Positions 940-64,000 of a stretch of 64,000 nucleotides of DNA are shown piece after piece; the first letter of the stretch is position 1, and every line of letters starts with the position of its first letter. The notes below the pieces were generated by a model. It was not told the DNA's origin, made no database searches, and worked only from the letters and a program-made list of their open reading frames with translations. Location: the NCBI GenBank assembly GCA_947488905.1, contig CANLBJ010000003.1, positions 310,001 through 374,000 on the forward strand, in the 5' to 3' direction. Origin of the DNA: Ulvibacter algarum (lineage in GTDB: Bacteria; Bacteroidota; Bacteroidia; Flavobacteriales; Flavobacteriaceae). A program made the position numbers and the translations under genes.

Positions 940-3348
940 ATGAAGAAGGTGTTTATTCTAGTATGGTTTACCATTATCACGTGTGTTTTTAGCTGCACAA
1001 ACAGCAAAAACTACAAAGGCCTGCCTTATGATTACCTAGGCAATGACACTACAAACATCTTAAAAGTAACCAACCCAGAGCAACTTGCACTAGACATTAA
1101 AGCTAATGATCTTTTAAACAAAACTGGCAATCCCATTTTATCATTTATAAGTACTTCGGAAATATTAAGCAACTGGAAATCGCAACATCCATTTTACTTT
1201 AGCACAAAAGATGATGGTGAGAATACAAGCATTGTGTTTACAAAAATAAAAGATACGCTCTCTTTTAAAGCAGATTCAATACCTAAAGCTATTATTGAAA
1301 ACTTCTCAATTAAAGAAAGATTGGCTCAAAAAATAGTATTAAACAAAGACTCTCTGTTTATGACAGAAAAAGATAGTGTGACTATTTTTTCTACAAGCAG
1401 GCAATCTTTGATCTCTATAGTAGAACAAAAGGAAAACCATATAGATCAAGACCTAATAAAACTACTTGAGTTTTCTAAGGACGGAGAGATTGTATCAACA
1501 GGAATAACAAGTTTATATGCTCATAACGTTTCCGAAGTAAAAAACATGAAGCGCTCTCAAGAGATGCATATTTTGCCAGACGGCATTCAAGTTTCTGGTA
1601 TCATAAAAAGTAAAGACAGCAGCCTAATAGATGTATTTAAAGGTCAAACTCCTCAAGCTAGTAAAGTTGCTGCAATTGTGCCCAGTGATTTTAATACCGT
1701 AAAAGGTTTTACGTTTTCTGACGCAGGTCTTTTAATTAAATCTCTAAAAAGATATAAAAAAGACACTACAATAACCGCGGTACACCCACTGCTAGAAACA
1801 ATAACAGAAATTGCAGAAGTTCATCTCTCAAAAGACCGCACACTCATAATGTCTAGTATAGATATGCCTCAATCACTAGCTTCTATTGATATAGATATTA
1901 AAGAGTTTGAAACTTTTAGAGACATTACTATTTATGAGAATAACATCTCTAGCTTATTAGTTGCATCTTTTGAGCCACTACTGTCTGGTTCAGACTATCC
2001 TTATCTTATAATGTTAGACTCTTACTTAGTTTGCACGAGTTCATTAGAGGCTGCAAAAAATAGCATCAGCACATTTCAAAACAAAAATGTGTTAGAACAA
2101 ACATCTTATTTTTCTTTAATAAATACAGAGATGTTGTCTACATCTTCTTTGTATTATTTAGGGCAAGAAGAAGCAGTGTCAAAAATCACTAATGCGGTTT
2201 TAAATACAGCTATTCTAGAAAAACAAAAAAGCATATATCCGTTTGCAGCATTGCAGTATAGTTATGACAACAGTTTTGCTCATCTTAACTTTGTTACAAA
2301 AGAAGTCTCAAAAAGAAAGCAAGTTGTGGGCACAGTATCACAAAAATTCTCATTAACGACAGAACAAACTATTCTAGGCAGCCCTCAGTTTTTCACAAAC
2401 CATCGTACTGGTGGTAAAGATGTGATTTTTCAAGATATCACAAATACGCTTTTTCTGTATTCTAGCGCTGGCAAAAAATTATGGAGCAAAAAAATAGACG
2501 GAGCCATCATAGGCGATATCAATGAAATAGACCTTTTACGCAATGGCAAAAAACAATTAACATTTACAACCCAAAGCACCTTTTATGTATTAGACAGAAA
2601 TGGTAAAGAAGTGGCACCATTTCCTTTAGAGTTTAAAGACAAAATCACTCAACCCCTTGCTGTATTTGATTATGATAATAATAGAAAGTATCGTTTTATT
2701 ATCACACAAGGTAAAAACATATTAATGTATGACGGTAAAAGCAAAAAGGTAAAAGGCTTCACATTTAAGAAAACCGAAAGCCCGCTAGTATTTGCCCCAA
2801 AACACATACGTAGTGGCAGAAAAGACTATATTATTCTTGCAGAAGAAAACGGTAAAACCACCTTCTTATCTAGAACCGGAAAAGAAAGAATTAAAGTAAA
2901 AGAGACTTTTAATTTTGGAGAAATACCTATACAAAAAGAAGGTGCAAATTTTGTGGTAATTACTGCAGACAAAAAGAAACACTTGATCACATCTTCTGGC
3001 GGGACTTCTACGCAAAACTTAAATGTTTCTGGTAGTTATTACTATAACAACCTCGGTAAAACTAGAGTTACTCTTGACGATAACCTATTGCGTATTAATG
3101 ATGTACTTGTAGAACTTCCTTTTGGTATATATAGTGAACCTCAACTAATTAATCATAATAGAAACACTTATGTTGCTGTTACAGACATGCAAGAGCACAA
3201 AGTATACGTCTATGATAAGAACAGAAAACTTTTAGAGGGGTTCCCTGTTTTTGGAACCTCGGCACCTAAACTTGGCACTAATAGCACAAAGTTACTAATT
3301 GTCACTTTAGGGAGTGATAAAGATGTACTTTGTTATCAGGTTAATTAA
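940..3348 (+). CDS. Large lipoprotein of unknown function, flavobacterial type
   Basis: 802 residues. A lipoprotein signal ends at a lipobox-like FSC (Cys19), so the protein should be lipid-anchored in the envelope. Roughly residues 470-800 are rich in short beta-strand segments (for example DVIFQDITNTLFLYSSAGKK and KYRFIITQGKNILMYDGKSK), as expected for a beta-propeller with PQQ/WD-like blades. The N-terminal 450 residues are mixed alpha/beta without a motif I recognise. It follows rnhB by 71 bp but has its own promoter box. Convergent with lipB, with a 4-bp gap. Function unknown; a propeller suggests binding or scaffolding, which is inference. Confidence 0.8.
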   Translation: MKKVFILVWFTIITCVFSCTNSKNYKGLPYDYLGNDTTNILKVTNPEQLALDIKANDLLNKTGNPILSFISTSEILSNWKSQHPFYFSTKDDGENTSIVFTKIKDTLSFKADSIPKAIIENFSIKERLAQKIVLNKDSLFMTEKDSVTIFSTSRQSLISIVEQKENHIDQDLIKLLEFSKDGEIVSTGITSLYAHNVSEVKNMKRSQEMHILPDGIQVSGIIKSKDSSLIDVFKGQTPQASKVAAIVPSDFNTVKGFTFSDAGLLIKSLKRYKKDTTITAVHPLLETITEIAEVHLSKDRTLIMSSIDMPQSLASIDIDIKEFETFRDITIYENNISSLLVASFEPLLSGSDYPYLIMLDSYLVCTSSLEAAKNSISTFQNKNVLEQTSYFSLINTEMLSTSSLYYLGQEEAVSKITNAVLNTAILEKQKSIYPFAALQYSYDNSFAHLNFVTKEVSKRKQVVGTVSQKFSLTTEQTILGSPQFFTNHRTGGKDVIFQDITNTLFLYSSAGKKLWSKKIDGAIIGDINEIDLLRNGKKQLTFTTQSTFYVLDRNGKEVAPFPLEFKDKITQPLAVFDYDNNRKYRFIITQGKNILMYDGKSKKVKGFTFKKTESPLVFAPKHIRSGRKDYIILAEENGKTTFLSRTGKERIKVKETFNFGEIPIQKEGANFVVITADKKKHLITSSGGTSTQNLNVSGSYYYNNLGKTRVTLDDNLLRINDVLVELPFGIYSEPQLINHNRNTYVAVTDMQEHKVYVYDKNRKLLEGFPVFGTSAPKLGTNSTKLLIVTLGSDKDVLCYQVN

Positions 3349-3352
3349 TAAT

Positions 3353-4913: not shown

Positions 4914-4917
4914 GGAT

Positions 4918-9634: not shown

Positions 9635-10278
9635 AATCAATTATCACCACACTCATACTAGCTTCTATTATATTTTTTTTAGGTTGTAAAGAAGAAAATA
9701 AAACAGATACAATAACTGCTTCGACAACTTCGGAAATTTTAAAAACCGAAACACCTACTAAAAAACAACCAACTAATAATGGTTTAAAACAAAACGGAGA
9801 TTACACTTCATTGTTTAATAGAGCACCTAAAGATTGTAGTTTTATTACTCCCGAAAAATTAGCAACTGCTATAGATGTAAATAAGACAACAATTAAGAGC
9901 AAAAGCAATCCTTGCACCTATATTCATACTCAAGCAAATGGTCAAGAAACACGCTTTCATTTTGTCATTGAAAAATGGGGAAATCAAAAAATTAAAAAAG
10001 AAATAAAAACAGCCTTAAAAAACGCCGAAATGTTTGGCGAAGATTCCACATTAAGTCAATATAGAATTAGTGAAACAGGAGACACCTATCTATCCATGCA
10101 TCAAAACAGAATGGTTCGTATATTAAATGAGACTAGCGATACAGTTATTGTCATACTATACTCCCCTACTATAGACCCTGCAGAGCCAGATATAGAAAAA
10201 AGGAAAAACCTAAAAGAAGCTGCAAGAATGCAAGCATACGCTATTGCTAATCACTTACTTAATACCAACCAGAAATAA
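9631..10278 (+). CDS. Lipoprotein of unknown function
   Basis: 215 residues; lipobox FLGC with Cys at about 19, then a Lys/Thr-rich linker (residues 20-55) and a folded part of about 150 residues containing SFITPEKLATAIDV and CTYIHTQANGQETRFHFVIE. I recognise no family. Its start overlaps the stop of the mini-gene and its TAA overlaps the ATG of the next gene by one base, so it is clearly part of an operon running to 14737. The N-terminus is paralogous in style to the next gene (both have GCKEE after the lipobox). Confidence 0.75.
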   Translation: MKSIITTLILASIIFFLGCKEENKTDTITASTTSEILKTETPTKKQPTNNGLKQNGDYTSLFNRAPKDCSFITPEKLATAIDVNKTTIKSKSNPCTYIHTQANGQETRFHFVIEKWGNQKIKKEIKTALKNAEMFGEDSTLSQYRISETGDTYLSMHQNRMVRILNETSDTVIVILYSPTIDPAEPDIEKRKNLKEAARMQAYAIANHLLNTNQK

Positions 10279-10709
10279 TGAAAACTAAAACTATACTAAT
10301 ACTAGCATGTTCGGTTTTTACAGCACTATTTTTTGGTTGTAAAGAAGAACAATTAAAACCACAGACAGTAATACAATCTTCAGAAGAAATAACAAGCCAG
10401 CATATTTCCGAAGAAAAAACAGCAATCACAACTGCCGTAACAAAAACGAAAACAGACCCAGTTAAAACCGAAGACCCAATGAATCTGTTAGACACCCAAG
10501 CAAAAATCTATACAGATATTTTTGGCAACTTAGGCGGCGTAGAAGAACTGCAAGGCATTGAAGGCTTTATGGATCTTGTCAAAAAAATGGACGCCACACC
10601 AGAAACCAAAAAGCAACTCACCGAGCAATACAAACTGTACTCTAACAGCTTAGACCCAAAGAAAAAGGAAGAACTAAAAGCAGCACTTTTAAAAGCGATG
10701 AAACAATAA
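10278..10709 (+). CDS. Small lipoprotein of unknown function
   Basis: 143 residues. Lipobox FFGC (Cys21), Lys/Glu/Thr-rich linker to about residue 70, then a predicted helical C-terminal half (MNLLDTQAKIYTDIFGNLGG … LKAALLKAMKQ). Starts on the last base of the previous stop (TAATG). Probably anchored in the envelope with its partners in this operon. Function unknown. Confidence 0.75.
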   Translation: MKTKTILILACSVFTALFFGCKEEQLKPQTVIQSSEEITSQHISEEKTAITTAVTKTKTDPVKTEDPMNLLDTQAKIYTDIFGNLGGVEELQGIEGFMDLVKKMDATPETKKQLTEQYKLYSNSLDPKKKEELKAALLKAMKQ

Positions 10710-14865: not shown

Positions 14866-15912
14866 ATGAGACCGTATTTCTTTCTTTTACTATTCGTATT
14901 ACCGTTTTGTAGTTATGGGCAATATCAATTTTCTGGAAAAGTAAATGAAGAACATATAGATGGCACTATTTATCTTTCTGTGGTTGATAATTACAGGAAA
15001 ATTTCTGGCGTATTTCCGGAGCAAATAGTAGACAAAACTACGGCAGATGTAAATGGCGCATTTGTTTTTAATGGCGACTTACTGCCTGCAGAAAACAGAA
15101 TCTATCGCATTCACATAGATGCGTGCAATGATGATGAAGCAGCAAATAATCACTTTACTGGGCATTGTCTTAATAGCCAAGAGGTTGTTTTTATAGCAAA
15201 CAATACCTCAACACTAGAACTCCCTTTTAGTTTTGAAAACGAGATGTTTTGCAAAGTAGTTTCTAAAGACGAGCGTGCAAATGCCTTCTTAAAAATAGAC
15301 TCTCTTAAAAATGATATGCGTTTTGCCTTTGGGACTTTTAGAAGCGAAGCAAATCGTAAATTGAACTCTCAAAAGTGGTTTACGGTGTTGCAAAATTATG
15401 GCGAAAAAATAAACGAACCACTCGCAGAACTTTACAGTTATGCTTTCTTTAGTGACCGCACCAGCAATCTTTACGGCTACTATCTAGAAGATTTAAAGAA
15501 CAGTGACTACTATGATAATTTGCTCGCTAGACTTGAAGCTAAATACCCAAATGCCCCATACACCACACAATATCGCGCAGAATTACAGGCAGACAAAAAC
15601 ATTTTGAGCCCATCAGCAAAAGCAAGTATTCCTTGGTGGGTGTATTTTTTAGGAACTATTACGTTGCTCTCTATTATTGCAAATTTTTATTTCTTCGGAA
15701 AGGTTAAAAACGGGAAGCATATTTCAGAAAAAAAACAATCGCTCTCTGCCCAAGAACAAAAGGTGCTCGATCTTATTCTAGCAGATAAAAGCAATAAAGA
15801 GATCGCTGCCGAAATTTTTGTGAGTGTAAGCACCGTAAAAACGCATATAAATAATCTTTATAAAAAACTTGGTGTTAAAAATCGTGATGCTGTTAAGGGG
15901 CTTTATAACTAA
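14866..15912 (+). CDS. Membrane-spanning LuxR-type transcription regulator
   Basis: 348 residues. Signal-peptide-like start (…FCSYGQ), an exported domain (about 20-255) with paired Cys residues, a membrane span 257-277 (WWVYFLGTITLLSIIANFYF), a short basic linker, and a LuxR helix-turn-helix at 293-348 (LSAQEQKVLDLI, EIFVSVSTVKTHINNLYKKL). This puts a sensor outside and DNA binding inside without a kinase: a one-component receptor. The DNA-binding domain retains the features of the family. Targets unknown; the envelope operon ending at 14737 is the nearest candidate. A weak -7 box (TATATTCG) lies upstream. Confidence 0.87.
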   Translation: MRPYFFLLLFVLPFCSYGQYQFSGKVNEEHIDGTIYLSVVDNYRKISGVFPEQIVDKTTADVNGAFVFNGDLLPAENRIYRIHIDACNDDEAANNHFTGHCLNSQEVVFIANNTSTLELPFSFENEMFCKVVSKDERANAFLKIDSLKNDMRFAFGTFRSEANRKLNSQKWFTVLQNYGEKINEPLAELYSYAFFSDRTSNLYGYYLEDLKNSDYYDNLLARLEAKYPNAPYTTQYRAELQADKNILSPSAKASIPWWVYFLGTITLLSIIANFYFFGKVKNGKHISEKKQSLSAQEQKVLDLILADKSNKEIAAEIFVSVSTVKTHINNLYKKLGVKNRDAVKGLYN

Positions 15913-17050: not shown

Positions 17051-17196
17051 TTTATGTAAGAGCAAAGCGGTTAAGAAATAAGATATTTAAGCAATCTATA
17101 TTTCTTTTCCGTTTTGTTTTTTTTTATGCAAAATAACTTCAGAAATGAGCTAGTTTTCAAGTTTGAATATTTCCGAAGTAAAAATAGCGTTAGCCG

Positions 17197-19586: not shown

Positions 19587-20886
19587 CGTTTTTCATTTTC
19601 TGGTTAACACTAACTTCGGAAACACTCTTTCGGGAAGCCTTCTTATACATAAAATAATTTGCCCCAAAGAATCCTGCGCCTATGGCTACAAATAACAATC
19701 CTCTTAAAACAAAAGAGATATCTGTATCAAAGAATCTGCACGTAATGAGTCCTGTGATAATAAGCAAGCCATAGTTTAAAACACTAAAGAGGTTTTTACG
19801 TGCGCCCATTTCTACCGTAAATACACCAAGGGCTAGAATGAGAATATTAATAAGTACTGTAGGCACAAAACTTCCTTCTGTTTTAAAAACACATATCCCA
19901 ATAAAGAGGATAAACACATATTGAAAAAGGTTGAAGGGTCTTAATCTTTTTTTAGAAAACAAAAATGCAATCACTGCTAGCGTAACAACCCCTATAACAA
20001 CAGTTGTAACAGAATCATTAATGCTCAAAAATTCATTTATAAATTCGTCCCAGACAAACCTAAAACTTGTAATAAACAATGTGATTACTGTCCCTAAAGA
20101 GCCTAAAATTAAATACCCATTGGTACGCAATTTTTGATTTTCAAAAACTGGTAATTTCCCAAGATTATAAAACAAACCAAAAAGAAAAATATACGTCAAG
20201 AAAACAAAGCTATTATCCCATTGTATAAATGCGCCAAGCGAAATAAGCATACTTAACGGCAAGAACCAATTGAAAATTCCCGTGATATTATCACTTGTTC
20301 TAGATTTTAATTGCATCCAATAGTAAGGTGCCAACCACCCCAACATTAAAAGATATAAGTAGGGACTGGCATCATAAAAGTATCCTGCATTACACGCATA
20401 AATTGTAGCAAACAGTATATGTAATAATGCTGCCGCGTGAGATTTAAGTAAATAAACTAAGGGAGCCGCAAGTATAATCCAAGTAAGTAAAAATGAAGAC
20501 ATCTCTCCCGGAATATTATAAATCTGGCTCACTAACGCAATACTCGACCCAATGGCAAAAAACAGAAATACTGCCGCGGTTTCTTTCCAGGCATTGCTCT
20601 TCTTTTTAAATAAAGTATACGCTACTAATAACTGCCCCACTACTAATGGTGCAAATGCCCATATTGTTTTTGTTGCCCGCGAAAAATCGTCCCAGTTATG
20701 AGCGAGTATCAAGATGACTCCTAGTCCTGTGAGCAACGAACCTAACACCCCAAAAATGGCAAATAACTTATTAGGCTGTGCTACTTTCTCTCTGGCATAA
20801 TACTGCCTTATATCTTGTTCAACTATAGGCGTGATCACTTTTGCAGTGACCAGCTCGTCAAGTTCTCTTTCTATTTTTGAGTTCAT
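19579..20886 (-). CDS. DUF2157 multi-pass membrane protein
   Basis: 435 residues. The N-terminal helical domain (IERELDELVTAKVITPIVEQ, then QYYARE) is the DUF2157 signature and is followed by about twelve hydrophobic helices. The C-terminal tail is charged (SRKSVSEVSVNQKMKNDE). It overlaps the GDYXXLXY gene by 8 bp and follows the lipoprotein gene by 11 bp. Probably an inner-membrane component of unknown role. Confidence 0.88.
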   Translation of the reverse strand: MNSKIERELDELVTAKVITPIVEQDIRQYYAREKVAQPNKLFAIFGVLGSLLTGLGVILILAHNWDDFSRATKTIWAFAPLVVGQLLVAYTLFKKKSNAWKETAAVFLFFAIGSSIALVSQIYNIPGEMSSFLLTWIILAAPLVYLLKSHAAALLHILFATIYACNAGYFYDASPYLYLLMLGWLAPYYWMQLKSRTSDNITGIFNWFLPLSMLISLGAFIQWDNSFVFLTYIFLFGLFYNLGKLPVFENQKLRTNGYLILGSLGTVITLFITSFRFVWDEFINEFLSINDSVTTVVIGVVTLAVIAFLFSKKRLRPFNLFQYVFILFIGICVFKTEGSFVPTVLINILILALGVFTVEMGARKNLFSVLNYGLLIITGLITCRFFDTDISFVLRGLLFVAIGAGFFGANYFMYKKASRKSVSEVSVNQKMKNDE

Positions 20887-27155: not shown

Positions 27156-28442
27156 CTACCAAGCTGCTACAATCTCACCTACGGCTGCTATTGTATTATC
27201 AATATCTTCATTGCTTAATGCATCTGAAATAAACCAAGTTTCAAAAGCACTTGGAGCTATATAAATACCGTGTTCTAATAAACCATGAAAGAATAGGTTA
27301 AACCTTTCTCCACTAGCTGCAGATGCAGATGCAAAATCTACCACTGGATCATTAGAAAAATGCACAGATATCATAGAACCTACCCTATTAATAGTGTGTG
27401 GTATATTATGCTTTATTAACGCTGCCTGCATACCTAGGTGCAAACGTTTTGTTTTTATATTTATAGAAGAAAAAATCTCTGGTTTCTCATTCAGCTCATT
27501 TAACATTGTGATACCTGCAGCCATAGCTAACGGGTTACCACTTAATGTTCCTGCTTGATACACTGGTCCAATAGGGGCTAGATAATTCATAATTTCTTCT
27601 CTTGCTGCAAATGCACCTACTGGTAGCCCTCCACCTATCACTTTTCCGAAGGTAATAATATCTGCGTTGACACCGTATAACTCTTGTGCACCACCTTTTG
27701 CAAGACGGAAACCAGTCATTACCTCATCAAAAATCAATAGAGTATTATGCTCATCACATAAAGAACGGAGTCCTTCAAGAAATCCTGAAGCCGGTGGTAT
27801 ACACCCCATGTTTCCTGCTACTGGCTCTATAATAATACAAGATATCTCATCTTTATTTGCTTCAAAAATGGCTTTTACTTGCTCAAGGTTATTGTAATCT
27901 GCTAGTAAAGTATCTTTTGCTGTACCTGCTGTTACTCCTGGGCTATTAGGAACACCCAGTGTAATTGCCCCACTACCAGCTTGTATTAAAAACGAATCAC
28001 TATGACCGTGATAACAACCAGCAAATTTTATTATTTTTTCTCTAGAAGTATATCCTCGTGCTAATCTAACAGCACTCATACATGCCTCTGTACCACTATT
28101 TACAAAACGTATTTTATCAATATTAGGCACCATACTAACTGCTAGTTGTGCTATCTCGGTCTCTAAAACTGTAGGCGCCCCAAAAGAGGTTCCTTTTTTT
28201 GCTGTGGCAGTAATAGCATCTACTACAGGATCAAATGCGTGACCTAAAATCATAGGTCCCCAAGAGTTTATATAATCAATGAGTTTGTTTCCATCTTCAT
28301 CAAATAAATAGGCTCCTTTTGCACTATTAATAAAAACTGGGTGTCCACCTACGCCTTTAAACGCTCTTACTGGTGAGTTAACTCCTCCCGGAATTACTTG
28401 TTGCGCTTCAGAAAAAAGCGCGCTACTCCTTTTATATTGCAT
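27156..28442 (-). CDS. hemL: Glutamate-1-semialdehyde 2,1-aminomutase
   Basis: PLP enzyme that makes 5-aminolevulinate for haem synthesis; cytoplasmic. 428 residues, full length. The PLP lysine is K267 in [20 protein letters not shown]; substrate and cofactor motifs [18 protein letters not shown] and GCYHGHSD are intact. Last gene of an operon with the glucosaminidase upstream (10-bp gap). Confidence 0.96.
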
Positions 28443-44510: not shown

Positions 44511-46586
44511 TTAATAATTCAAGATCTCTTCAATCTTAGCTTTCACTTTTTCAGTTGAAGGAATCATTGTTTCTTCTAAAACAGAGTTTAATGGTATTGC
44601 AGGCATATTTTCAGAACCTATAATCATAACCGGTGCATCAAGCGACTGAAAACATTCTTCTTGTATTCTTCCTTGCAATGCTCTACTAAAGCTATTTTCG
44701 CTTGGCTCTTCAGTAACAACTAGACATTTACCACATTTATTTACAGACTTAAAAACTGTATCATAATCTAATGGATGTAATGTTCTTAAATCTACAATCT
44801 CTACACGGTCTGTAATTCCCATTTCTCTTGTGGCATTATAAGCCCAATGCACTCCCATTCCATATGTTATGATAGAAAGGGTTTCTTCATCTTCTTGAGG
44901 CCATATTTCTTGTAACACCCAAGCTTTACCAAAAGGCAACATATAATCTTCACTTGGCTCAATACTCGTAGCTCCTTTTGTGCCTTTCACTTTACTCCAG
45001 TACAAACCTTTGTGCTCAAAAATAACCACAGGATTAGGATCATAATAAGCAGCTTTCATCAGTCCTTTTAGATCGGCTCCGTTTGAAGGGTATGCTATTT
45101 TAACTCCGCGAATATTACTCACCACACTCTCCATAGATGAAGAATGATAAGGACCACCGCTTCCGTAGGCACCAATAGGCACTCTTAAAATCATAGAGAC
45201 TGGCCATTTACCATTTGATAAATAACAACTCCTAGAAACCTCTGTAAATAATTGATTAAGCCCAGGCCAAATATAATCTGCAAACTGAACCTCAACAATA
45301 GGTTTCAATCCCACAGCACTCATACCAACGGTAGAACCAACAATAAATGCTTCTTGAATAGGCGTATTAAAAACACGATTGTCTCCAAACTTTTGAGCCA
45401 AAGTAGCCGCTTCTCTAAACACACCTCCTAGCCTTCCTCCTACATCTTGCCCATATAACAAACACTCAGGGTGTTTTGCCATTAACTCTTCTATAGCAAA
45501 CAGCGCACAATCAACCATCACCACTTTATCACCACCCTCAGGAGCACGTACTCCCACTTCTTCCGTAACTGGAGTTGGCGCAAAATCGTGCGTAAATAAA
45601 TCTTCAGGTTTAGGATCTTCTGCCTCAAGCGCGCGATCAAGACTTTTTCGAACTTCGATTTCGATTTCGGTTTCGATTTCCTTTATTTCTTCTTCGGAAA
45701 TATTATAATCTGAAAGTAATTTAAGCATTTTAGGATATGGGTCTCGCGATCTAGCTTCATCTAGATCATCGCGATAAAACTCCATCCTAACACCTGAAGT
45801 ATGATGATTTAATAAAGGCACTTTTGCATGAACCAAAAATGGTCTTCGCTCAGTTCTTATTTTCTCAATAACTTCATTAATCGTTTTATAACTTTCTTCA
45901 AAATCAGTTCCGTCAATAGATATTGATTCAAGACCGTGAAATCCAGCTGCATATTCTGCTGCATTCTGTGCTCTGGTTTCTGCTGCATTTGCAGAAATAT
46001 CCCAACCATTATCTTGTACTAAATAAAGTATAGGAAGTTGCTTTAAAGCAGCCATCTGGAACGCTTCAGCAATCTCACCTTCTGTCACACTTGCATCACC
46101 TAAAGAACAAACAACTATAGGTTTATCTTCAAATACCTGCTTAGCAATTGCTTCGTTAATCCCTAAAGACTCTTTATATCTAAAACCTAAAGCAACTCCA
46201 GTTGCAGGGATTGCCTGCATTCCTGTTGCACTACTTTGGTGAGGTATTTTAGGTTTATCAATATCGTTTAAACTTGGGTGCGAATAGTAGGTACGTCCAG
46301 CAGAAAATGGGTCATCTTTTTTAGCTAATACTTGCAACATTAACTCATAAGGAGTCATCCCTATCGCAAGCAACATAGAGTCATCTCTGTAATACGGAAA
46401 CATATAATCCTGTGGTTGCAATTGCATACCAACAGCTGTCTGTATTATCTCGTGACCACGCGAAGTTGCGTGCACATATTTTGAAACTACTTTAAAATTC
46501 TCCTCATATAACGCTGTCATTGCTTTTGCAGTGACTAGGTTTTTAAAGGCTTTTAAAACTAGGTCTTTGGATACTAATCTATTCAT
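44511..46586 (-). CDS. 2-Oxoacid dehydrogenase E1, alpha and beta subunits fused (branched-chain type)
   Basis: Thiamine-diphosphate enzyme decarboxylating 2-oxoacids and acylating the E2 lipoyl group. 691 residues; alpha part about 1-310 with TPP motif VVCSLGDASVTEGEIAEAFQ ending at QDNGWDISAN, beta part about 345-691 with LYGQDVGGRLGGVFREA, EVQFADYIWPG and a transketolase C domain. The linker holds the charged repeat EIETEIEIEV encoded by GAAATC tract 45653-45681. The fused layout is common in Bacteroidota. It is the last gene of the paa run, after E2 and a four-helix gene. I infer a role in phenylpyruvate or branched-chain oxidation. Confidence 0.9.
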   Translation of the reverse strand: MNRLVSKDLVLKAFKNLVTAKAMTALYEENFKVVSKYVHATSRGHEIIQTAVGMQLQPQDYMFPYYRDDSMLLAIGMTPYELMLQVLAKKDDPFSAGRTYYSHPSLNDIDKPKIPHQSSATGMQAIPATGVALGFRYKESLGINEAIAKQVFEDKPIVVCSLGDASVTEGEIAEAFQMAALKQLPILYLVQDNGWDISANAAETRAQNAAEYAAGFHGLESISIDGTDFEESYKTINEVIEKIRTERRPFLVHAKVPLLNHHTSGVRMEFYRDDLDEARSRDPYPKMLKLLSDYNISEEEIKEIETEIEIEVRKSLDRALEAEDPKPEDLFTHDFAPTPVTEEVGVRAPEGGDKVVMVDCALFAIEELMAKHPECLLYGQDVGGRLGGVFREAATLAQKFGDNRVFNTPIQEAFIVGSTVGMSAVGLKPIVEVQFADYIWPGLNQLFTEVSRSCYLSNGKWPVSMILRVPIGAYGSGGPYHSSSMESVVSNIRGVKIAYPSNGADLKGLMKAAYYDPNPVVIFEHKGLYWSKVKGTKGATSIEPSEDYMLPFGKAWVLQEIWPQEDEETLSIITYGMGVHWAYNATREMGITDRVEIVDLRTLHPLDYDTVFKSVNKCGKCLVVTEEPSENSFSRALQGRIQEECFQSLDAPVMIIGSENMPAIPLNSVLEETMIPSTEKVKAKIEEILNY
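45653..45681 (-). repeat. GAAATC hexamer tract inside the E1 gene
   Basis: On the minus strand the stretch is built of GAAATC/GAAACC units and encodes part of EIETEIEIEV in the alpha-beta linker. Related tracts lie at 54346-54376 and 61866-61895. Confidence 0.6.
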
Positions 46587-50578: not shown

Positions 50579-53119
50579 TTATAGTACATTAAACTGCTCA
50601 AAATGATGATTTAAATGTTTTCGTTCTAATAAATAAGACTCGTATTTATTTAATTCACCAAACACTAAATTCTTTAAAACAGCATCTGGATTTTCCTTAA
50701 AAAATGCTAAATATTTAAAACGTTGTTCTAAAAATTTATCTTTTGCTGTTTGCAAATCTGCGTGAACTAAAGGTGCCAACGTATCTTTTTCTAATGTTGG
50801 AAATTTAGAATTCTGCGGAAATTTTTCAAAGTTATAAAGGCTATCATGGACAACATCCAAATACTTTTCTGGTGTTGCAATATCAAAATCTTGAATTTCT
50901 CCCGAAGCAATTTTGTAGGTGTATTCTAAATGCTCTAACATATGCTGTGGAGTCATAATTCCCCATTGTGGTTTGCTGTCTTCTGAAAGTTTATGGAGAC
51001 ACGACTGGATCGTTTCATTTGTCATTTCGGTAAAAACCTCTTGTTTCTTTTCTACCATTGTTAAAATGGTTGCAACACAAACTAATGGCTCTTCCTTTTC
51101 TGCACCGGCTGGTAAAATAGCGTTTGCAGCATCTACATTCGTATCAAAAACCTCAACGTACCATTTTACAATACCACTTGGATGTTCTGTACCTCTAGAA
51201 TCTCTATCTACTTTTTGCTTACATGTTAAACGCACGTACAATGTATCACCATCATAAATAGGGCGTAAGAATCTAATTTCTTCTAAACCGTAATTTGCTG
51301 CAACTGGGCCCTTGTTTGGGTATACAAAAAGACCTGCTGCCATAGAAATAATAAAATATCCGTGGGCCGTTCGCTTTTCAAAAATGCTTCCGTCAAGGCT
51401 TGTTATATCGGTGTGTGCATAAAAATGATCCCACGTAATATTTCCGAAGTTTACAATATCTGTGTCTGTAATTGTACGGTTATGAGTTTTTAGTGACATC
51501 CCTGGCTCAATATCTTCCCAATGGTAAGCAAAAGGATGCTTTGGTGATTCTTTATAATCAGCTTTTGGCTGGTACATTCCAGTTACTTCTGTCAATGTGG
51601 TTGGACTTCCTTGAATGGCACAACGTTGTAAGTAATGCTTAATACCACGCATTCCACCCATTTCTTCTCCTCCACCTGCACGTCCTGGGCCACCGTGAAT
51701 TAATCCTGGTAATGGACTACCATGCCCTGTACTTTGCTTTGCAGATTCTCTATTTAAGATTAATATACGTCCGTGATGACTTGCGGCATTTACGGCATAT
51801 TCTGTTGCTATTTTATCATCATTGGTTACGATTGAACTCACTAAAGATCCTTTCCCCATTTTTGCTAAAGTGATCGCATCTTCTAGCGTATCATAAGGCA
51901 TTAAGGTACTTACAGGTCCAAAAGCTTCGGTCACGTGGGCATTCTCATTTTTTAAAGGATTATCCTCACGCATCAATATAGGTTTCATAAAAGCACCTTT
52001 CTGTGAATCTGCGCCTATCGCTTCAAAGTCATTAAAATTTCCGTAGACCATCTCTGCAGTTTTGGCAATCTTAGCCACTTGCTCTTTTACACTATTACGT
52101 TGTGCATCATTTACTAAACTTCCCATTCGCACCTCTTTTAAACGAGGGTCACCAATGGTCACTTTATCAAGTTGTTTTATCAATGCATTTTGCACATCTC
52201 CAACCAAATTTTGAGGAACAATAATACGACGTATTGCCGTACATTTTTGACCACATTTTGTTGTCATTTCATTACGAACTTCTTTTACAAATAAGTCAAA
52301 TTCGGGTGTTCCTGGCACTGCATCTTTTCCTAGAATCGCCGCATTTAAACTATCTGCTTCCATTGTAAATGGCACCGACTCTGCAGTTAATTGTGGATGG
52401 TTTTTAAGAATACGACCTATTTTAGCAGATCCCGTAAATGTTACTACATCTTGAGATTCTACCGTATCTAATATATTTTTTGCTGTTCCTGAAATAAGCT
52501 GCAAAGATCCTTCGGGTAAAATACCCGAAGCAATGATTTCTCTTACTACGGCCTCAGTCAAATATGCTGTTTGTGGCGCTGGTAATACAACTGCTGGCAT
52601 TCCTGCCATCCAGTTTACGGCACATTTTTCTAACATTCCCCAAACTGGAAAATTGAACGCGTTGATATGCACTGCAACACCCTCACGAGGCACCATAATA
52701 TGATGCGCCATAAAACGACCACCGCGAGATAAATCTATAGGATCTCCTTCTACGTGATATGTCTGATTAGGGAATAATTTACGTAAAGATGCATTGGCAA
52801 AAAGATTACCAAAACCCCCTTCAATATCAACCCAACTATCACGTTTTGTTGCACCTGTGCGGTAACTTATTTCATAAAAGGCTTGCTTTCTTTTTTCAAG
52901 ATATAGCGCAAGGCTTTTTAGCATGTTACCACGTTGTTGAAACGTCATTTTACGAAGTGTTGCTCCTTGGTCACGACCATATTGCAAAATAGACGGAACA
53001 TCTAATCCCTCTACTGTTGTACTTGTAAAATGTTCTCCAGTGATAGAATCAAAAACAGGAATTCCTTCGCCGTTTCCAGATTGCCATTGGCCTTGTACGT
53101 AATGTTGTGTTTTATTCAT
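50579..53119 (-). CDS. paaZ: PaaZ, aldehyde dehydrogenase + MaoC hydrolase + C-terminal DUF1569 domain
   Basis: Ring-opening enzyme: MaoC part hydrolyses oxepin-CoA and the dehydrogenase oxidises the semialdehyde product. 846 residues against about 680 in the enterobacterial protein. Dehydrogenase 1-520 with catalytic Glu (E254, FTMEADSLN) and Cys (C293, GQKCTAIRR); MaoC domain about 540-690 with FGNITWDHFYAHTD. Residues 700-846 are an added DUF1569/DinB-like helical domain (WGIMTPQHMLEHLEYTYKIA … HLNHHFEQF) with several His. Function of the third domain unknown. 9 bp after paaJ. Confidence 0.93.
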   Translation of the reverse strand: MNKTQHYVQGQWQSGNGEGIPVFDSITGEHFTSTTVEGLDVPSILQYGRDQGATLRKMTFQQRGNMLKSLALYLEKRKQAFYEISYRTGATKRDSWVDIEGGFGNLFANASLRKLFPNQTYHVEGDPIDLSRGGRFMAHHIMVPREGVAVHINAFNFPVWGMLEKCAVNWMAGMPAVVLPAPQTAYLTEAVVREIIASGILPEGSLQLISGTAKNILDTVESQDVVTFTGSAKIGRILKNHPQLTAESVPFTMEADSLNAAILGKDAVPGTPEFDLFVKEVRNEMTTKCGQKCTAIRRIIVPQNLVGDVQNALIKQLDKVTIGDPRLKEVRMGSLVNDAQRNSVKEQVAKIAKTAEMVYGNFNDFEAIGADSQKGAFMKPILMREDNPLKNENAHVTEAFGPVSTLMPYDTLEDAITLAKMGKGSLVSSIVTNDDKIATEYAVNAASHHGRILILNRESAKQSTGHGSPLPGLIHGGPGRAGGGEEMGGMRGIKHYLQRCAIQGSPTTLTEVTGMYQPKADYKESPKHPFAYHWEDIEPGMSLKTHNRTITDTDIVNFGNITWDHFYAHTDITSLDGSIFEKRTAHGYFIISMAAGLFVYPNKGPVAANYGLEEIRFLRPIYDGDTLYVRLTCKQKVDRDSRGTEHPSGIVKWYVEVFDTNVDAANAILPAGAEKEEPLVCVATILTMVEKKQEVFTEMTNETIQSCLHKLSEDSKPQWGIMTPQHMLEHLEYTYKIASGEIQDFDIATPEKYLDVVHDSLYNFEKFPQNSKFPTLEKDTLAPLVHADLQTAKDKFLEQRFKYLAFFKENPDAVLKNLVFGELNKYESYLLERKHLNHHFEQFNVL

Positions 53120-55258: not shown

Positions 55259-56419
55259 AAAAAACTGTTTATTTTCTTTATTCATCCTTCTTAATAAAGG
55301 AGAACAACGATATCTATCTTCGCCATATTCCTCATACAACGCGTCTAGCGCATGCACGCAATTATCAATACCTAACTCATCTGCCCAAGTCAATAATCCT
55401 TTTGGATAATTAACACCTTTAGTCATTGCATTATCAATATCTTGAGCACTAGCAACATTTAAAAACAAAGCATCTGCAGCTTCATTGATCAACATCACCA
55501 CTATCCTATTCTTTATACTTTCTAATAGGTTTTGATCTTTAGATGGTTCTGGCCTAACACTTTCTTCTGAGTAATTATAAAAACCTCTTCCAGTTTTCCT
55601 ACCTAAATATCCTGCTTCTGCAAAACGTTTTTGAGTAAATGCTGGCTTGTATCTTGGATCATAATAAAATGCTGTAAAAACGGTTTCGGTAACAGTATAA
55701 TTCACATCGTTACCTATAAAATCCATTAACTCAAAAGGTCCCATTTTAAAACCTCCAACAGATTTCATTGCATAATCAATGGTTACAAAATCTGCTATTC
55801 CTTCTTCATAAATACGGAGTGCTTCACCATAAAATGGTCTTGCTACTCTATTCACAATAAAGCCTGGAGTATCCTTTGCTACTGCAACCACTTTTTTCCA
55901 ACTCTTAATTGTTTTTTCTGAAATTTTAAGCACATCATCACTTGTCTGAATTGCTGGAATAACCTCAACAAGTTTCATCAATGGCGCAGGATTAAAAAAG
56001 TGAATTCCTACACAGCGTTCAGGTTTTTGTAATGACGATGCTATTGAAGCAATTGACAATGAAGAAGTATTTGATGCAATTATACAGGCATCAGAAACAT
56101 AACTTTCTAACTCTTGAAAAACCTTTTTCTTTATGTCGAGATTCTCAACAATAGCCTCGATAGTCAAATCACTATCTGCTAACTCTTTTAAAGAATTTAC
56201 ATAGCTAATGTTCTCTTGAATACGTGTTTTTTCTTCGGAAGTAACACGGCCTTTTTCAACGAGTCGCGTCATTATTTTCTCTAAACTAGCTTTAGCTTTA
56301 TCAAGTGCAGCTTGGTTTAAATCAAATAATTTAACTGTACAACCTGCCGTGGATGCTACTTGTGCGATCCCAGAACCCATTGTTCCTGCTCCTATTATTC
56401 CTATGTTGGTTATTTTCAT
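55250..56419 (-). CDS. paaH: PaaH, 3-hydroxyacyl-CoA dehydrogenase
   Basis: Oxidises 3-hydroxyadipyl-CoA with NAD. 389 residues. Dinucleotide-binding loop GAGTMGSGIAQVAS (9-22); catalytic His in CVGIHFFNPAPLMKLVEVIP; NAD/substrate segment KDTPGFIVNRVARPF; two helical dimerisation domains after residue 190, the second (290-389) with NEAADALFLNVASAQDIDNA. The stop codon lies in a cassette repeat. Confidence 0.93.
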   Translation of the reverse strand: MKITNIGIIGAGTMGSGIAQVASTAGCTVKLFDLNQAALDKAKASLEKIMTRLVEKGRVTSEEKTRIQENISYVNSLKELADSDLTIEAIVENLDIKKKVFQELESYVSDACIIASNTSSLSIASIASSLQKPERCVGIHFFNPAPLMKLVEVIPAIQTSDDVLKISEKTIKSWKKVVAVAKDTPGFIVNRVARPFYGEALRIYEEGIADFVTIDYAMKSVGGFKMGPFELMDFIGNDVNYTVTETVFTAFYYDPRYKPAFTQKRFAEAGYLGRKTGRGFYNYSEESVRPEPSKDQNLLESIKNRIVVMLINEAADALFLNVASAQDIDNAMTKGVNYPKGLLTWADELGIDNCVHALDALYEEYGEDRYRCSPLLRRMNKENKQFFGN

Positions 56420-56475: not shown

Positions 56476-57258
56476 TTACTTCCCTTTAAATACGGGTTTT
56501 CTTTTTTCTACAAACGCGGCTACACCTTCTGCATAATCTTCTGTAGAAGCTGATTCAATTTGTAATTTACTTTCTAATTTTAATTGCTCTTCAAGATTGT
56601 TATTCATTGATTGATTAAGCAATCTTTTTGTTAAGCCCAATGCCTTTGTTGGCATATTAGCTAATGTCAATGCTTTTAAATTAACTTCTTCCATTAAAGT
56701 TTCCGAAGCAACCACACTATAAATCATACCCATCTGCTCTGCTTTTTCTGCGGAAATTTTATCCCCTAACATCATTATTGCAGATGCTTTTCCAAACCCT
56801 ATTAATCGAGGTAAAAAGAATGTCCCAGCACTATCTGGCACTAAGCCAATTTTACTAAAAGCTTGTATAAAACTTGCTCTATCACTTGCAATTACTACAT
56901 CACAAGCTAATGCTATATTTGCTCCAGCACCTGCTGCAACACCATTTACACCACAAATTATTGGTTTTTCAATAGCTCTGATTCTGTTAACGATAGGGTT
57001 ATAATGGTCGTCAAGTATTTTTTTAAACCCTGGGTTCAAATCTGGATTTGTAATCTCACCAATATCTTGTCCCGCACAAAAAGCTTTTCCGTTTCCGGTT
57101 AAGATAATAGCTCTTACGTCATCATCTTTTTCACAAGCATCAAGTTCATCTTGAAGCAAAAAAGCCATCTCTCTATTAAAGCTATTAAAAACCTCTGGAC
57201 GGTTAAGAGTTAAGGTTGCAACTCCGTTTTTTATTTCTTTCGTTATTGGTTGATTCAT
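56476..57258 (-). CDS. paaG: PaaG, ring 1,2-epoxyphenylacetyl-CoA isomerase
   Basis: Isomerises the epoxide to oxepin-CoA. 260 residues of crotonase fold. FCAGQDIGEITNPDLNPGFK and IGLVPDSAGTFFLPRLIGFG are PaaG-type, the second including the Asp that replaces the usual hydratase Glu. The first Glu position is Ala/Asn (GVAAGAGANIALACD), as expected for PaaG. Confidence 0.9.
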   Translation of the reverse strand: MNQPITKEIKNGVATLTLNRPEVFNSFNREMAFLLQDELDACEKDDDVRAIILTGNGKAFCAGQDIGEITNPDLNPGFKKILDDHYNPIVNRIRAIEKPIICGVNGVAAGAGANIALACDVVIASDRASFIQAFSKIGLVPDSAGTFFLPRLIGFGKASAIMMLGDKISAEKAEQMGMIYSVVASETLMEEVNLKALTLANMPTKALGLTKRLLNQSMNNNLEEQLKLESKLQIESASTEDYAEGVAAFVEKRKPVFKGK

Positions 57259-60114: not shown

Positions 60115-61188
60115 TTAGACATCAAAATCTACTATTACTTTATCTGTGGTTGGTACTGCTTGGCAGCTCAACACTAGGTTTTGCGATACTTCTTTATCAC
60201 TCAACGCATAATTTATTTTCATCTCGACAGCTCCTTCTTTCACCTCACATTTACATGTACTACAAACGCCACCTTTACAAGCAAAAGGCAAATCTGCCCC
60301 TGCACCTAAAGCGGCATCAAGAATATTATCGTATTCTTTAGTCATCACAAAAGAAAACTCTTTCCCGCCATCAACAATAGTGATTTCTGTACCCTCTACA
60401 TTTTGTTGTGCTAAACGTTCTGCTCTTGCTATATCCTCTTCAGTTAATCCTGTTACAAATAACTCAAAATGCACATTCTCTTTTGGCAATCCTGCTTTCA
60501 CTAAATAGTCACTAACAAAGTTTACCATTTTTTCTGGTCCGCATAAAAACACTTCGTTTGTATCAGGAATATCAATAAAAGTCTTTGTTAAAACCTCCAT
60601 CTTTTCTTCATCAAAACGACCATTAAACAACTCGATATCTCTTTTCTCTTTGGTTAAGAAATAGTTGATTTCAAAACGTCCAAAATACTTATTACGCAAT
60701 TGCTCTAACTCTTCTTTAAAGATAATAGATTTTGCCGTTTTATTCACATAAAAAAGCTTGCAAGTAGACTGAGGTTCAGCCGCTAAGTGCGCTTTTACCA
60801 TTGATAAAACTGGTGTAATACCACTACCTGCTGCAAAGAATAAATAGTTTTTTGCTTCGGAAGGTTGACACGCTACTCCAAAATTTCCACTTGGGGCCAT
60901 TACTTCTAAAGTATCACCAGCTTTTAAAGTAGTGTTTACAAAAGTTGAAAACACACCTCCTAGAATCTGCTTTACAGCAACTTTCCATTCGCCATCTGCA
61001 GGACCCGAACATAGACTATAAGAACGTCTTGTGTCTTTGCCATCAATATCAGCTTTTAGCGTTAAGTGTTGTCCTTGACGAAACTTAAATTCATTTACAA
61101 TTTCCGAAGGAACATCAAACGTTATTACTGATGTATCATCCGTCTCTTTATAAATATCTTTTATTTTGAGTTTGTGAAATATAGCCAC
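60115..61188 (-). CDS. paaE: PaaE, reductase of phenylacetyl-CoA epoxidase
   Basis: Transfers electrons from NAD(P)H through FAD and a 2Fe-2S cluster to PaaA. 357 residues. FAD-binding [20 protein letters not shown] (56-75), NAD domain with [20 protein letters not shown]-terminal ferredoxin with [17 protein letters not shown] and VLSCQAVP (four Cys). Start is GTG at 61188. First gene of the operon; its promoter contains the PaaR-type palindrome. Confidence 0.95.
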
Positions 61189-61210
61189 AGGTTTTTTGGT
61201 TTTAAGTAAA

Positions 61211-61241: not shown

Positions 61242-61278
61242 ATACACAAAAAAAGGCTTTAAAAGAGTAGGCTGCTTA

Positions 61279-61845
61279 CTAGACAATTCCGTTAATTAGC
61301 ACAGAAACCATATCTTTTTTAAGCACATTTACATCCATCTTACCCCTTTTTTCGTTCCAGAGATATAGGGTTCTCAGTGTTGAAAGAATTGAAAACAAAA
61401 TAACCTCTGGGTGTTGGGGTTTTATTTGTTTTTCTGAAATGCCCTGTTTTATGATATTCCTAAAATTATCTTCATAATCCTCTCTCATCTTTACCACTCT
61501 TTTTAAAGAAACACCCTCAAGATGTATCCAGTCGTTATTAAGTGTAGCGATATGTTCAGAAAAATTTACGGTGATATCAATATGCACTTCAATTACTTTT
61601 TTAATTTTTTGTAATGGAGTGGACGTTTCCGAAGCAATTGAATTCATTTTTTCTGTAAACTCTTCTGCCACTTCAAGAATGAGTGTTGCTAGAATTTCTT
61701 GTTTGCCAGAAATATGGTTGTACAAACTTGCCGCTTTCATATCCATAGCTTGTGCAATGTCGCGCATTGAGACTGCATTATAGCCGCGTTCTTTAAAAAG
61801 ACGGGAGGCTATGTTTATTATTTCTTGTTTGCGGGTGGAGTTCAT
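61279..61845 (-). CDS. TetR-family regulator, probable PaaR
   Basis: 188 residues. N-terminal TetR helix-turn-helix YNAVSMRDIAQAMDMKAASL then YNHISGKQEIL; C-terminal helical ligand domain. By position directly upstream of paaE it is the likely phenylacetyl-CoA-responsive repressor of the operon. A -7-like box (TATCTTCG, 61852-61859) is only 6 bp from its ATG. Confidence 0.88.
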   Translation of the reverse strand: MNSTRKQEIINIASRLFKERGYNAVSMRDIAQAMDMKAASLYNHISGKQEILATLILEVAEEFTEKMNSIASETSTPLQKIKKVIEVHIDITVNFSEHIATLNNDWIHLEGVSLKRVVKMREDYEDNFRNIIKQGISEKQIKPQHPEVILFSILSTLRTLYLWNEKRGKMDVNVLKKDMVSVLINGIV

Positions 61846-61865
61846 TTAAAACGAAGATACGTTTT

Positions 61866-61895
61866 GAAATCGAAACTGAAATCGAAATCGAAACG
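61866..61895 (-). repeat. GAAATC hexamer tract upstream of the TetR gene
   Basis: Plus strand GAAATCGAAACTGAAATCGA continues AATCGAAACG; lies just upstream of the TetR gene's -7-like box, in the region where -33 would be. Confidence 0.65.
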
Positions 61896-61923
61896 GATTT
61901 TTTACTTTTCAAGGTTTGTAAAA

Positions 61924-62724: not shown

Positions 62725-62800
62725 ATCGATCATATTTTGCTGTCTAATTTACAACACTTCTATAAGTTTATGTTAATCACATCTATAATTACTCATTTTA

Positions 62801-62832
62801 TTGTAAGTTTTATCAATAACTTCCTACTTTTG
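62801..62832 (+). promoter_or_regulatory. phhA: phhA promoter (TTG-N21-TACTTTTG), leaderless
   Basis: TTG at 62801-62803 and TACTTTTG at 62825-62832 with a 21-bp spacer; four bases (AAGT) then the ATG at 62837. Predicted start site is at the initiator codon. Confidence 0.7.
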
Positions 62833-62836
62833 AAGT

Positions 62837-64000
62837 ATGATAGAAGAGCGCATAGAAAGCAACGAGTTACTTGATAGATTGCCACCACATTTAAAGCAAT
62901 ACATTAAGCCACAAAATTATGAACATTACACACCCATTAACCAAGCGGTATGGCGATTTGTAATGCGTAAAAATGTAGATTATTTAAGCAAAGTAGCACA
63001 CGAGAGTTATCTAGATGGATTAAAACAAACCGGTATTTCTATTGATAACATCCCGTCTATGTATGGGATGAATCGCATATTAAAGGAAATAGGCTGGGCA
63101 GCTGTTGCCGTAGATGGGTTTATACCACCTAATGCATTTATGGAGTTTCAAGCCTACAAAGTGCTTGTTATTGCGAGTGATATAAGACAGCTAGAAAATA
63201 TAGAATACACGCCTGCGCCAGACATCATTCATGAAGGAGCGGGTCATGCACCTATCATTGCTAGCCCTGATTATGCAGAATATTTGAGACGTTTTGGAGA
63301 GATTGGGGCAAAAGCCATCTCTTCTGCTCATGACATGGAGATGTATGAAGCCGTTAGAGAATTATCTATTTTAAAAGAAGCTGAAGGTATTTCAGAAGAA
63401 AAAATTGAAGCTTCAGAAAAACGCGTGGAAGATTTACAAAACAAAGAGGTAATTGCTTCGGAAATATCACTGATAAGAAACCTGCACTGGTGGACTGTTG
63501 AGTATGGTATGGTAGGGACGATAGAAGACCCAAAAATTTATGGTGCCGGTTTGCTCTCTTCTATAGGTGAGAGTGAATGGTGCATGAAAGACGAAGTAAA
63601 AAAACTGCCCTACTCTATTGACGCGGCATACCAAGATTTTGATATCACTAAGCCGCAACCTCAACTATATGTAACACCAGATTTTGCTTACCTACAACAG
63701 GTACTAGAAGAGTTTGCAAACACGATGGCAGTGCGTAAAGGTGGCTGGAGAGGACTCAGTAAACTCATAGAATCTAAACAACTAGGAACCATAGAAATCT
63801 CTACAGGATTACAAGTTTCTGGTGTATTTACAAGAATGATACGCAATGAAGATAATGAAGTAGTATATTTTGAGACAGAAGGAGATACAGCGCTCGCATA
63901 CCGCGAGAAAGAAGTAATTGGTCACGGTGTCTCAAGACACAAAAATGGTTTTAGAAGCCCTTTAGGAAAACTAAAAGGTATTAACCTCGCCATAGAAAAT
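62837..64000 (+). CDS. phhA: Phenylalanine 4-hydroxylase (C-terminus beyond window)
   Basis: Open from ATG 62837 to the edge, 388 codons, no stop. Non-haem iron, pterin-dependent enzyme converting phenylalanine to tyrosine. Iron ligands are seen: H132 and H137 in IIHEGAGHAP, and Glu222 in HWWTVEYGMVG. Flavobacterial forms are longer than the classical 260-300 residues, with an added C-terminal part that starts here after about residue 260 (TPDFAYLQQVLEEFANTMAV). Confidence 0.93.
   Translation, partial: MIEERIESNELLDRLPPHLKQYIKPQNYEHYTPINQAVWRFVMRKNVDYLSKVAHESYLDGLKQTGISIDNIPSMYGMNRILKEIGWAAVAVDGFIPPNAFMEFQAYKVLVIASDIRQLENIEYTPAPDIIHEGAGHAPIIASPDYAEYLRRFGEIGAKAISSAHDMEMYEAVRELSILKEAEGISEEKIEASEKRVEDLQNKEVIASEISLIRNLHWWTVEYGMVGTIEDPKIYGAGLLSSIGESEWCMKDEVKKLPYSIDAAYQDFDITKPQPQLYVTPDFAYLQQVLEEFANTMAVRKGGWRGLSKLIESKQLGTIEISTGLQVSGVFTRMIRNEDNEVVYFETEGDTALAYREKEVIGHGVSRHKNGFRSPLGKLKGINLAIEN

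Follow-up and report, generated by a model that had tools for sequence, protein, structure and literature searches.

An octamer repeated throughout a flavobacterial genome as a lineage-specific DNA signal with a putative role in pilus-independent DNA uptake

Why is one octamer, TTCCGAAG, so common in this stretch of flavobacterial DNA, and what might keep it there? The window considered here, that is, the whole 64-kb stretch analysed, corresponds to C3:310001-374000 of a 3,548,518-base assembly that most likely belongs to the genus Patiriisocius (Flavobacteriaceae); one protein encoded in the window shares 97% identity with its counterpart in Patiriisocius marinus KCTC 32322T. The window contains 22 exact copies of the word, 13 on the plus and 9 on the minus strand, where 100 dinucleotide-preserving shuffles gave a mean of 1.01 and a maximum of 5. 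The first-pass annotation had listed 21 of these, every one at the correct position, and had overlooked a plus-strand copy at 10406. Its view that the number lay far above the roughly 1.4 copies expected agrees with the shuffles (22 against 1.01), and a further 5' T, which it had ascribed to most copies, is present in 19 of the 22. Across the genome there are 865 copies, or 0.24 per kb, with the two orientations about equally common (431 plus, 434 minus), as the annotation had observed within the window; the word read backwards, which serves as a control, occurs 120 times. The octamer is a real, genome-wide and lineage-specific DNA signal and no codon artefact in its own genome. As to function, we consider that the nine-base core TTTCCGAAG, together with its flanking tracts, is a putative pilus-independent DNA-uptake (self-recognition) signal, a reading to which we assign a probability of roughly 0.55.

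The abundance of the word is most readily judged in a 464-kb sample, made up of the window and twenty 20-kb stretches and amounting to 13% of the genome. Here an order-3 Markov model predicts 2.8 copies and 122 are found, which ranks the word first among the 8-mers present 15 times or more; extrapolated to the whole genome, the same model predicts about 21 copies in place of 865, a 40-fold excess. By our home-made gene calls, which comprise 392 genes and cover 88.6% of the sample, 84 copies lie within genes and 38 of the 122 between them, such that, on those calls, 31% of copies fall in the 11.4% of DNA that is intergenic, a 2.7-fold enrichment (p 4e-9). Copies within genes occur in every class of frame and orientation, with 2, 10 and 23 in frames 0, 1 and 2 in the sense direction and 4, 22 and 23 in the antisense direction.

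In the window, by our own gene calls, 17 of the 22 copies encode Ser-Glu (eight as TCC GAA and nine as TCG GAA), four encode Phe-Gly and one, at 17171, is intergenic, close to the 16, four and one counted originally. The serine codons involved are indeed rare, as had been expected, TCC and TCG contributing 166 and 281 of the 8,700 serine codons of the 464-kb sample. The notion that the word is kept in two frames holds for the window and gives way to all six frame/orientation classes in the wider sample; the strong Ser-Glu bias is thus a peculiarity of the window. Shuffling synonymous codons within genes 100 times left a mean of 4.7 in-gene copies and a maximum of 10, where the sample has 84. 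The count is therefore far from the codon-aware expectation, agreement with which the first-pass annotation had named beforehand as the outcome that would speak against a signal, and its proposal of a genome-wide DNA signal is borne out by the 865 copies against about 21, by independence of frame and intergenic enrichment, and by two further properties considered below, namely a constant core with AT-rich flanks and restriction to a lineage.

The anatomy of the site was derived from 150 of the 151 copies in a 663-kb collection from the same genome, one copy lying too close to an end. The octamer is preceded by T in 94% of these, which defines TTTCCGAAG as the core. Upstream of it, T and A are preferred at positions -18 to -12 and -7 to -2 (T at -6 in 64%, A at -4 in 67% and A at -2 in 67%), the two T tracts lying about one helical turn apart; downstream, an A-rich tract extends from +9 to +16, with A at +10 in 76%. 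The full unit is some 30 bp long, a TTTCCGAAG core with AT tracts on both sides. Inspection by eye of 50 + 40 flanking bases found the 38 intergenic sites to be of differing sequence, with the AT context alone in common, and several adjoin hairpins followed by T runs, resembling terminators (L019 is an example). The copies also show an arrangement relative to one another: of eight pairs less than 150 bp apart, seven are inverted with their T sides facing and one is tandem, and the opposite inverted arrangement does not occur (p 4e-4 against one in four). Close pairs lie, for example, at L010:13469/13497 and L004:19125/19212, and the tightest could form a hairpin. UUCG-tetraloop hairpins were considered and rejected, a column table showing the base needed for one more stem pair in just five of the 22 window copies.

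The signal is unevenly distributed among relatives. Within the genus, five genomes are rich in the octamer, with 865, 714, 499, 1,010 and 342 copies (the last, G009, is 59% complete); the other six, 1.7-2.1 Mb in size, have few, with 21-63 copies, each below its reversed control. The octamer alone was abandoned as a phylogenetic marker and the extended motif ANATTTCCGAAGNAA was adopted in its place, because genera g13 and g79 have many octamers and few extended motifs (9 in G022, which has 2,187 octamers, and 12 in G274, still above reversed controls of 0 and 1). A search of 65 genome handles, most of them selected because their counts were high, found the extended motif to be strong in five of the genus's 11 genomes and in some genomes of g87 and g155, two further genera. 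Our genome has 170 copies against 2 for the reversed motif, and the congener G008 has 239 against 0; in other genera, G277, G391, G319 and G421 have 52, 62, 56 and 75, against 0-1. Congeners of these other-genus carriers have few (8 against 1 in G100, 1 against 4 in G168). Intermediate counts, 14-24 against 0-2, are found in g47 (Aequorivita), g65 and g72, and several more of the 65 genomes have 9-19 against 0-1.

Counts of ATTTCCGAAGNA in named genomes cover 46 of 80 loci. High counts occur in P. marinus (190 against 5 for the control) and at L042 (148 against 5). Four Aequorivita genomes (40-73 against 3-6) are moderate, as are Ulvibacter litoralis (58 against 9), Marixanthomonas (63 against 8) and a number of metagenome-assembled genomes; Mesonia mobilis (24 against 5) and Bizionia myxarmorum (16 against 5) lie slightly above the control. 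Those genomes among the 46 that belong to Winogradskyella, Psychroflexus, Nonlabens or Dokdonia do not exceed it. In a 296-genome sample of the order, none of the 223 genomes outside the family has more than 11 copies of ANATTTCCGAAGNA, of which our genome has 225. Only within part of a single family is the extended motif clear. The octamer itself is abundant in g79, the genus of Ulvibacter litoralis, with 2,187 copies in G022, 1,255 in G017 and 69 per 100 kb in G274; with their weaker 5' T these copies may represent an ancestral, relaxed or different signal, or have another cause. Only 7 kb of G017, partly masked, was available, and it was left out of the flank analysis.

Alignment of the window to the orthologous regions of three congeners, G005, G006 (P. 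marinus) and G008, provides a view of conservation at individual sites. In G008, nine of 14 aligned sites are kept, against 14.7% of control 8-mers (p 3e-5), the control being every third 8-mer of the alignment, unmatched for composition and codon position. At some sites, such as 38990 and 56701, the core is constant though neighbouring bases differ. The small-genome congeners G003, G007 and G010 aligned too little to contribute, with 1, 1 and 0 sites.

A second word occupies part of the same family. CGCTTTCGCGAAAGCG is a 16-bp palindrome, whose inner 14 bp, GCTTTCGCGAAAGC, is present in 857, 664, 609, 578 and 408 copies in G210, G242, G367, G020 and G196, respectively, genomes of three genera, and in 0-19 copies in each of the remaining 389 family genomes sampled. 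We refer to these five as Dokdonia/Nonlabens-type because GCTTTCGCGAAAGC is dense in named Dokdonia and Nonlabens loci (L050, L053, L058 and L133). Its behaviour resembles that of the octamer: of 72 sites in 286 kb drawn from these genomes and loci, 31 lie outside open reading frames (ORFs), or 43% in 12% of the DNA, and the 41 within ORFs are spread over three frames, where synonymous shuffling leaves 0.2 (maximum 1 in 20 shuffles). TTTCCGAAG is scarce in the same five genomes, with 5 copies in G020, 2 in G242, 4 in G367, 31 in G210 and 39 in G196, each below its reversed control. The second word would, we infer, have the same function as TTTCCGAAG. At L051, words of the AGAAGATTC type occur 27 times in 20 kb, perhaps as a local repeat array.

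The two words meet in one island of our genome. Between about 31.5 and 115.9 kb of contig C3 (84.4 kb) there are three octamers where 21.6 are expected, with a p value of 8e-7 that is post hoc, because the region examined (C3:20001-100000) was picked for a 20-kb stretch, L020, with zero copies. The island contains a multicopper oxidase, an RND-type efflux set, a type IIG restriction-modification gene, a Zot/A32-like ATPase, an OloB-like protein and weakly JetB-like protein(s), as well as a serine recombinase close to ftsZ (a gene identified by eye). The 16 copies of GCTTTCGCGAAAGC that our genome possesses all lie within the island, at 32,331-110,016. The recombinase and these 16 foreign-type words are signs of acquisition that do not depend on the octamer p value. 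Parts of the island match stretches of G319, G109 and G104 that hold GCTTTCGCGAAAGC, at 67-83% DNA identity among the first eight matches listed per target; relatives of the island are therefore present in other genera too. The stretches G319:C5:40001-120000 (L169-L172), G109 (L173-L174) and G104 (L175) are related to its metal-resistance part, and a 933-bp gap between two GCTTTCGCGAAAGC copies recurs in our genome, in G109 and G104 and, among the places listed for them, in G121 and G218. All this would be explained most simply if the island derived from the Dokdonia/Nonlabens lineage.

Such depletion does not accompany every recombinase. Five tyrosine-recombinase matches were found in our genome, two of them on C2 and C4, and octamers were counted around the other three: the neighbourhood at C6 150001-209132 is low, with three octamers in 59 kb, that at C9 50001-90000 is normal, with 12 in 40 kb, and the recombinase at C3:1011 lies in a sampled stretch with eight octamers per 20 kb. 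On these counts, depletion is seen at one island and perhaps in the C6 region.

How might such a word be used? Under the uptake reading, a surface or periplasmic competence DNA-binding protein would prefer double-stranded DNA carrying the ~30-bp site, and the reader of the signal would be this uptake protein. DNA of the same lineage would then be taken up and recombined more often; copies would build up where they do least harm, in all reading frames and preferably between genes, and newly arrived islands would be without copies of TTTCCGAAG. Uptake would need to be independent of a pilus, because the type IV pilus ATPase was not found in these genomes: no PilB/T2SSE ATPase (PF00437) exceeded the cut-off in any of the genus's 11 genomes (completeness is 59-90% for six of them). 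More widely, 13 of 74 genome handles had PF00437 above the cut-off, G459 and G243 through marginal fragments, and the type IV pilus was rejected as a partner of the signal, its ATPase being present and absent both among genomes with the signal and among those without. ComEC was found in 10 of the 11 genus genomes, the miss being G009. Some handles denote the same genome twice (G003/G430 and G004/G460 in both counts; G319/G433, G092/G436 and G388/G439 in the PF00437 counts, left out of those for ComEC).

Pilus independence is what the genetics of Riemerella, which the papers cited below place in the Flavobacteriaceae, would suggest. Natural transformation is described in this genus, and the passages of PMC7965970 concerned report that transformation of R. 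columbina was competed by its own DNA and not by an equal amount of E. coli or R. anatipestifer DNA; the top k-mers given there for R. anatipestifer, R. columbina and F. johnsoniae all resemble A/T runs. A screen in R. anatipestifer found essential genes that include those for ComEC, DprA, RecA, ComF, an outer-membrane barrel and a helix-hairpin-helix protein, and the passages on these essentials name no pilus gene (PMC8459023). A wider picture, which we would offer tentatively and at slightly under even odds, is that Flavobacteriaceae practise pilus-free uptake by means of self words; Patiriisocius and certain relatives would use TTTCCGAAG and its AT tracts, and the Dokdonia/Nonlabens lineage CGCTTTCGCGAAAGCG; the words would then act as birth certificates of DNA, the Patiriisocius island still bearing that of Dokdonia/Nonlabens.

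A number of observations weigh against an uptake signal. The excess depends on the model: an order-5 Markov model predicts 71 of the 122 copies in the 464-kb sample, and TTCCGAAG no longer ranks first, the excess being small because the 6-mers used to train this model are for the most part pieces of TTCCGAAG itself. Spacing is random-like, with a coefficient of variation (CV) of 0.95 over 102 gaps against 0.94 for random placement. The density of 0.24 per kb compares with about 1 per kb for the uptake signal sequences (USS) and DNA uptake sequences (DUS) of other bacteria. Perfect copies of TTTCCGAAG number 116 and are outnumbered by 162 with a single mismatch, a ratio that nonetheless exceeds that of every other among the 2,778 nine-mers having four G/C and 10 or more copies. 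Conservation above background is clear in one of three congener comparisons: it is weak in G005 (six of 17 sites kept against 16.1% of the same control 8-mers, p 0.04) and not significant in P. marinus (six of 13 against 32.6%, p 0.22). In the other genera sampled, the octamer is just 4-8 fold above the order-3 model and its 5' T is weaker, at 73% in G391 (22 sites), 64% in G421 (42), 61% in G060 (44) and 38% in G274 (69). ComEC, tried as a correlate and rejected, is present in 68 of 71 genome handles whether or not they have the signal. A candidate receptor was not identified, the pilus-side search being confined to PF00437, and in the literature covered we found no uptake or transformation experiment on Patiriisocius. 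Judged from sequence, uptake appears to fit best among functions in uptake, recombination, nucleoid structure and methylation.

The rival that survives best, though we regard it as unlikely, is a site for an abundant nucleoid or chromosome-organising protein, in which the AT tracts around a fixed core would aid DNA bending. Many copies are intergenic, several of them beside terminator-like hairpins, and conservation in a congener would also be accounted for; an exact core of 8-9 bp in all coding frames and a patchy spread among close relatives would be unusual for a housekeeping protein, however, and a depleted island bearing another lineage's word seems to fit a self-marker better.

It is distinctly unlikely that the word is a Chi-like hotspot that regulates an enzyme of the RecBCD/AddAB type and is enriched in core DNA for repair. 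The word is short and asymmetric and shows enrichment in core DNA, and the single island looked at closely has few copies. Such a role is made less likely by the lack of strand polarity when assessed by contig: the splits on three sampled contigs are 36/34, 14/8 (C2) and 15/15, and that of C1, 36/34, differs from a 75% bias at p 2e-5, its two sampled parts giving 21/16 and 15/18. We know of no Chi sites with flanking AT tracts or inverted close pairs, both of which are present here.

A word iterated in the manner of HIP1 and upheld by methylation-linked repair or mutation bias is quite improbable. High copy number within and between genes would suit it, and the word of the sister lineage is palindromic, as is HIP1. 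TTCCGAAG is not its own reverse complement, however, and with its flanks the informative stretch reaches about 30 bp; nor would mutation bias readily explain the intergenic preference and the gap at the island.

That a preference for the rare TCC and TCG codons before Glu has produced the word is very improbable: the 17 Ser-Glu copies of the window invite the idea, and the codon shuffles, the 38 intergenic copies and the spread over all frames and orientations contradict it for our genome. Codon bias may contribute in other genera; the shuffles covered the octamer of our own genome and the GCTTTCGCGAAAGC set. Words of the TTCAGAA/TTCTGAAA type also exceed the order-3 expectation in our genome and appear in the top lists of five of seven sampled relatives (the G391, G421, G060, G274 and G008 samples), for which common Ser-Glu codons may be the cause. 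Finally, spread of a short element by transposition, suggested by the many identical cores, can be dismissed as having a negligible chance, since the intergenic sites, inspected by eye, share the AT context alone and in-gene sites are common to some orthologous positions in aligned coding sequence.

The individual copies of the window may now be set out according to their fate in the aligned congeners. Three are kept in G005, G006 and G008, namely 38990-38997 (plus, TCC GAA), which lies in the urocanase gene and has varying flanks, 51442-51449 (plus, Phe-Gly) and 56701-56708 (plus, TCG GAA); 1530-1537 (plus, TCC GAA) is kept in G005. Others are kept in part. The copies at 27644-27651 (plus, Phe-Gly) and 61627-61634 (plus, TCG GAA) are kept in G005 and G008 and not in G006. 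Those at 45692-45699 (minus, TCC GAA, in a dehydrogenase E1 gene) and 60855-60862 (minus, TCC GAA, without the 5' T) are kept in G006 and G008 and not in G005, nor, for the former, in G003 and G007. G008 alone keeps 56233-56240 (minus, TCC GAA, without the 5' T) and 63456-63463 (minus, TCG GAA), which are not kept in G005 or G006, and G006 alone keeps 61102-61109 (plus, TCG GAA), which is not kept in G005 or G008.

A further seven copies are not kept. In G005 these are 1154-1161 (minus, TCG GAA, in gene 949-3348), for which it is the sole aligned genome, 13559-13566 (plus, TCC GAA, in an OmpA-domain gene) and the intergenic copy at 17171-17178 (plus); in G008, where the alignment is poor, 19614-19621 (minus, TCC GAA); and in all of G005, G006 and G008, 15693-15700 (minus, Phe-Gly), 28606-28613 (plus, TCG GAA) and 37537-37544 (minus, TCG GAA, without the 5' T), the last also in the urocanase gene. 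Four are unaligned in relatives: 9728-9735 (minus, TCG GAA), 10406-10413 (plus, TCC GAA), which is the copy absent from the earlier list, 41596-41603 (plus, Phe-Gly) and 42182-42189 (plus, TCG GAA). Separately from the word, the window encodes at 33568-36744 a 1058-residue protein with a C-terminal secretion-sorting domain (PF18962), presumably a substrate of type IX secretion.

To our knowledge, uptake signal words are established only in the Pasteurellaceae and Neisseriaceae, both of which are pilus users; the DUS of the latter come in lineage dialects and are read by a pilus-associated receptor. Among the papers listed on uptake sequences, Chi, over-represented octamers and iterated palindromes in Flavobacteria and Bacteroidetes, the titles and the abstracts shown report neither TTCCGAAG nor CTTTCGCGAAAG. 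As a bare string of letters, TTCCGAAG is present in 1,097 papers, of which the 20 listed look unrelated, and a prior report may exist. If the uptake reading is true, a signal in Bacteroidota lacking a detected pilus ATPase raises the question of how flavobacteria select and import DNA; the word could then be used to fish for its receptor and to help transform marine flavobacteria. With a different word in each of two sister lineages, moreover, one could tell from sequence where horizontally transferred islands originated.

The closest likeness is to the USS of the Pasteurellaceae (e.g. AAGTGCGGT). The passages of PMC1626085 that deal with USS and DUS give as their shared traits the absence of orientation bias, a preference for noncoding DNA, inverted pairs and a clade-specific type, together with somewhat regular spacing, about one copy per kb and an excess of perfect copies over single mismatches; AT-rich flanking segments are described there for USS, and DUS are described as being without flanking motifs. 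Measured against those passages, TTTCCGAAG shares with USS a sharp 9-bp core with AT-rich flanks, the lack of orientation bias, occurrence within and between genes with a noncoding preference, inverted close pairs and clade-specific variants. It differs in the core itself, in having T/A tracts on both sides, in its lower density (0.24 against about 1 per kb), in spacing that is random and not regular, and in having more single mismatches than perfect copies; its genus, furthermore, has no pilus ATPase over the cut-off. With the DUS of the Neisseriaceae (GCCGTCTGAA and its dialects) it has in common, as far as the same source describes them, a genome-wide presence on both strands, and the existence of lineage dialects is a further likeness; it differs in possessing flanking motifs.

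The likeness to Chi sites lies in a short asymmetric word enriched in core DNA, from which TTTCCGAAG departs in its AT-tract flanks and in lacking strand polarity by contig. HIP1 of cyanobacteria, GCGATCGC, is a palindrome. It resembles TTTCCGAAG in its hundreds of copies within and between genes, and is closer to the word of Dokdonia and Nonlabens than to TTTCCGAAG.

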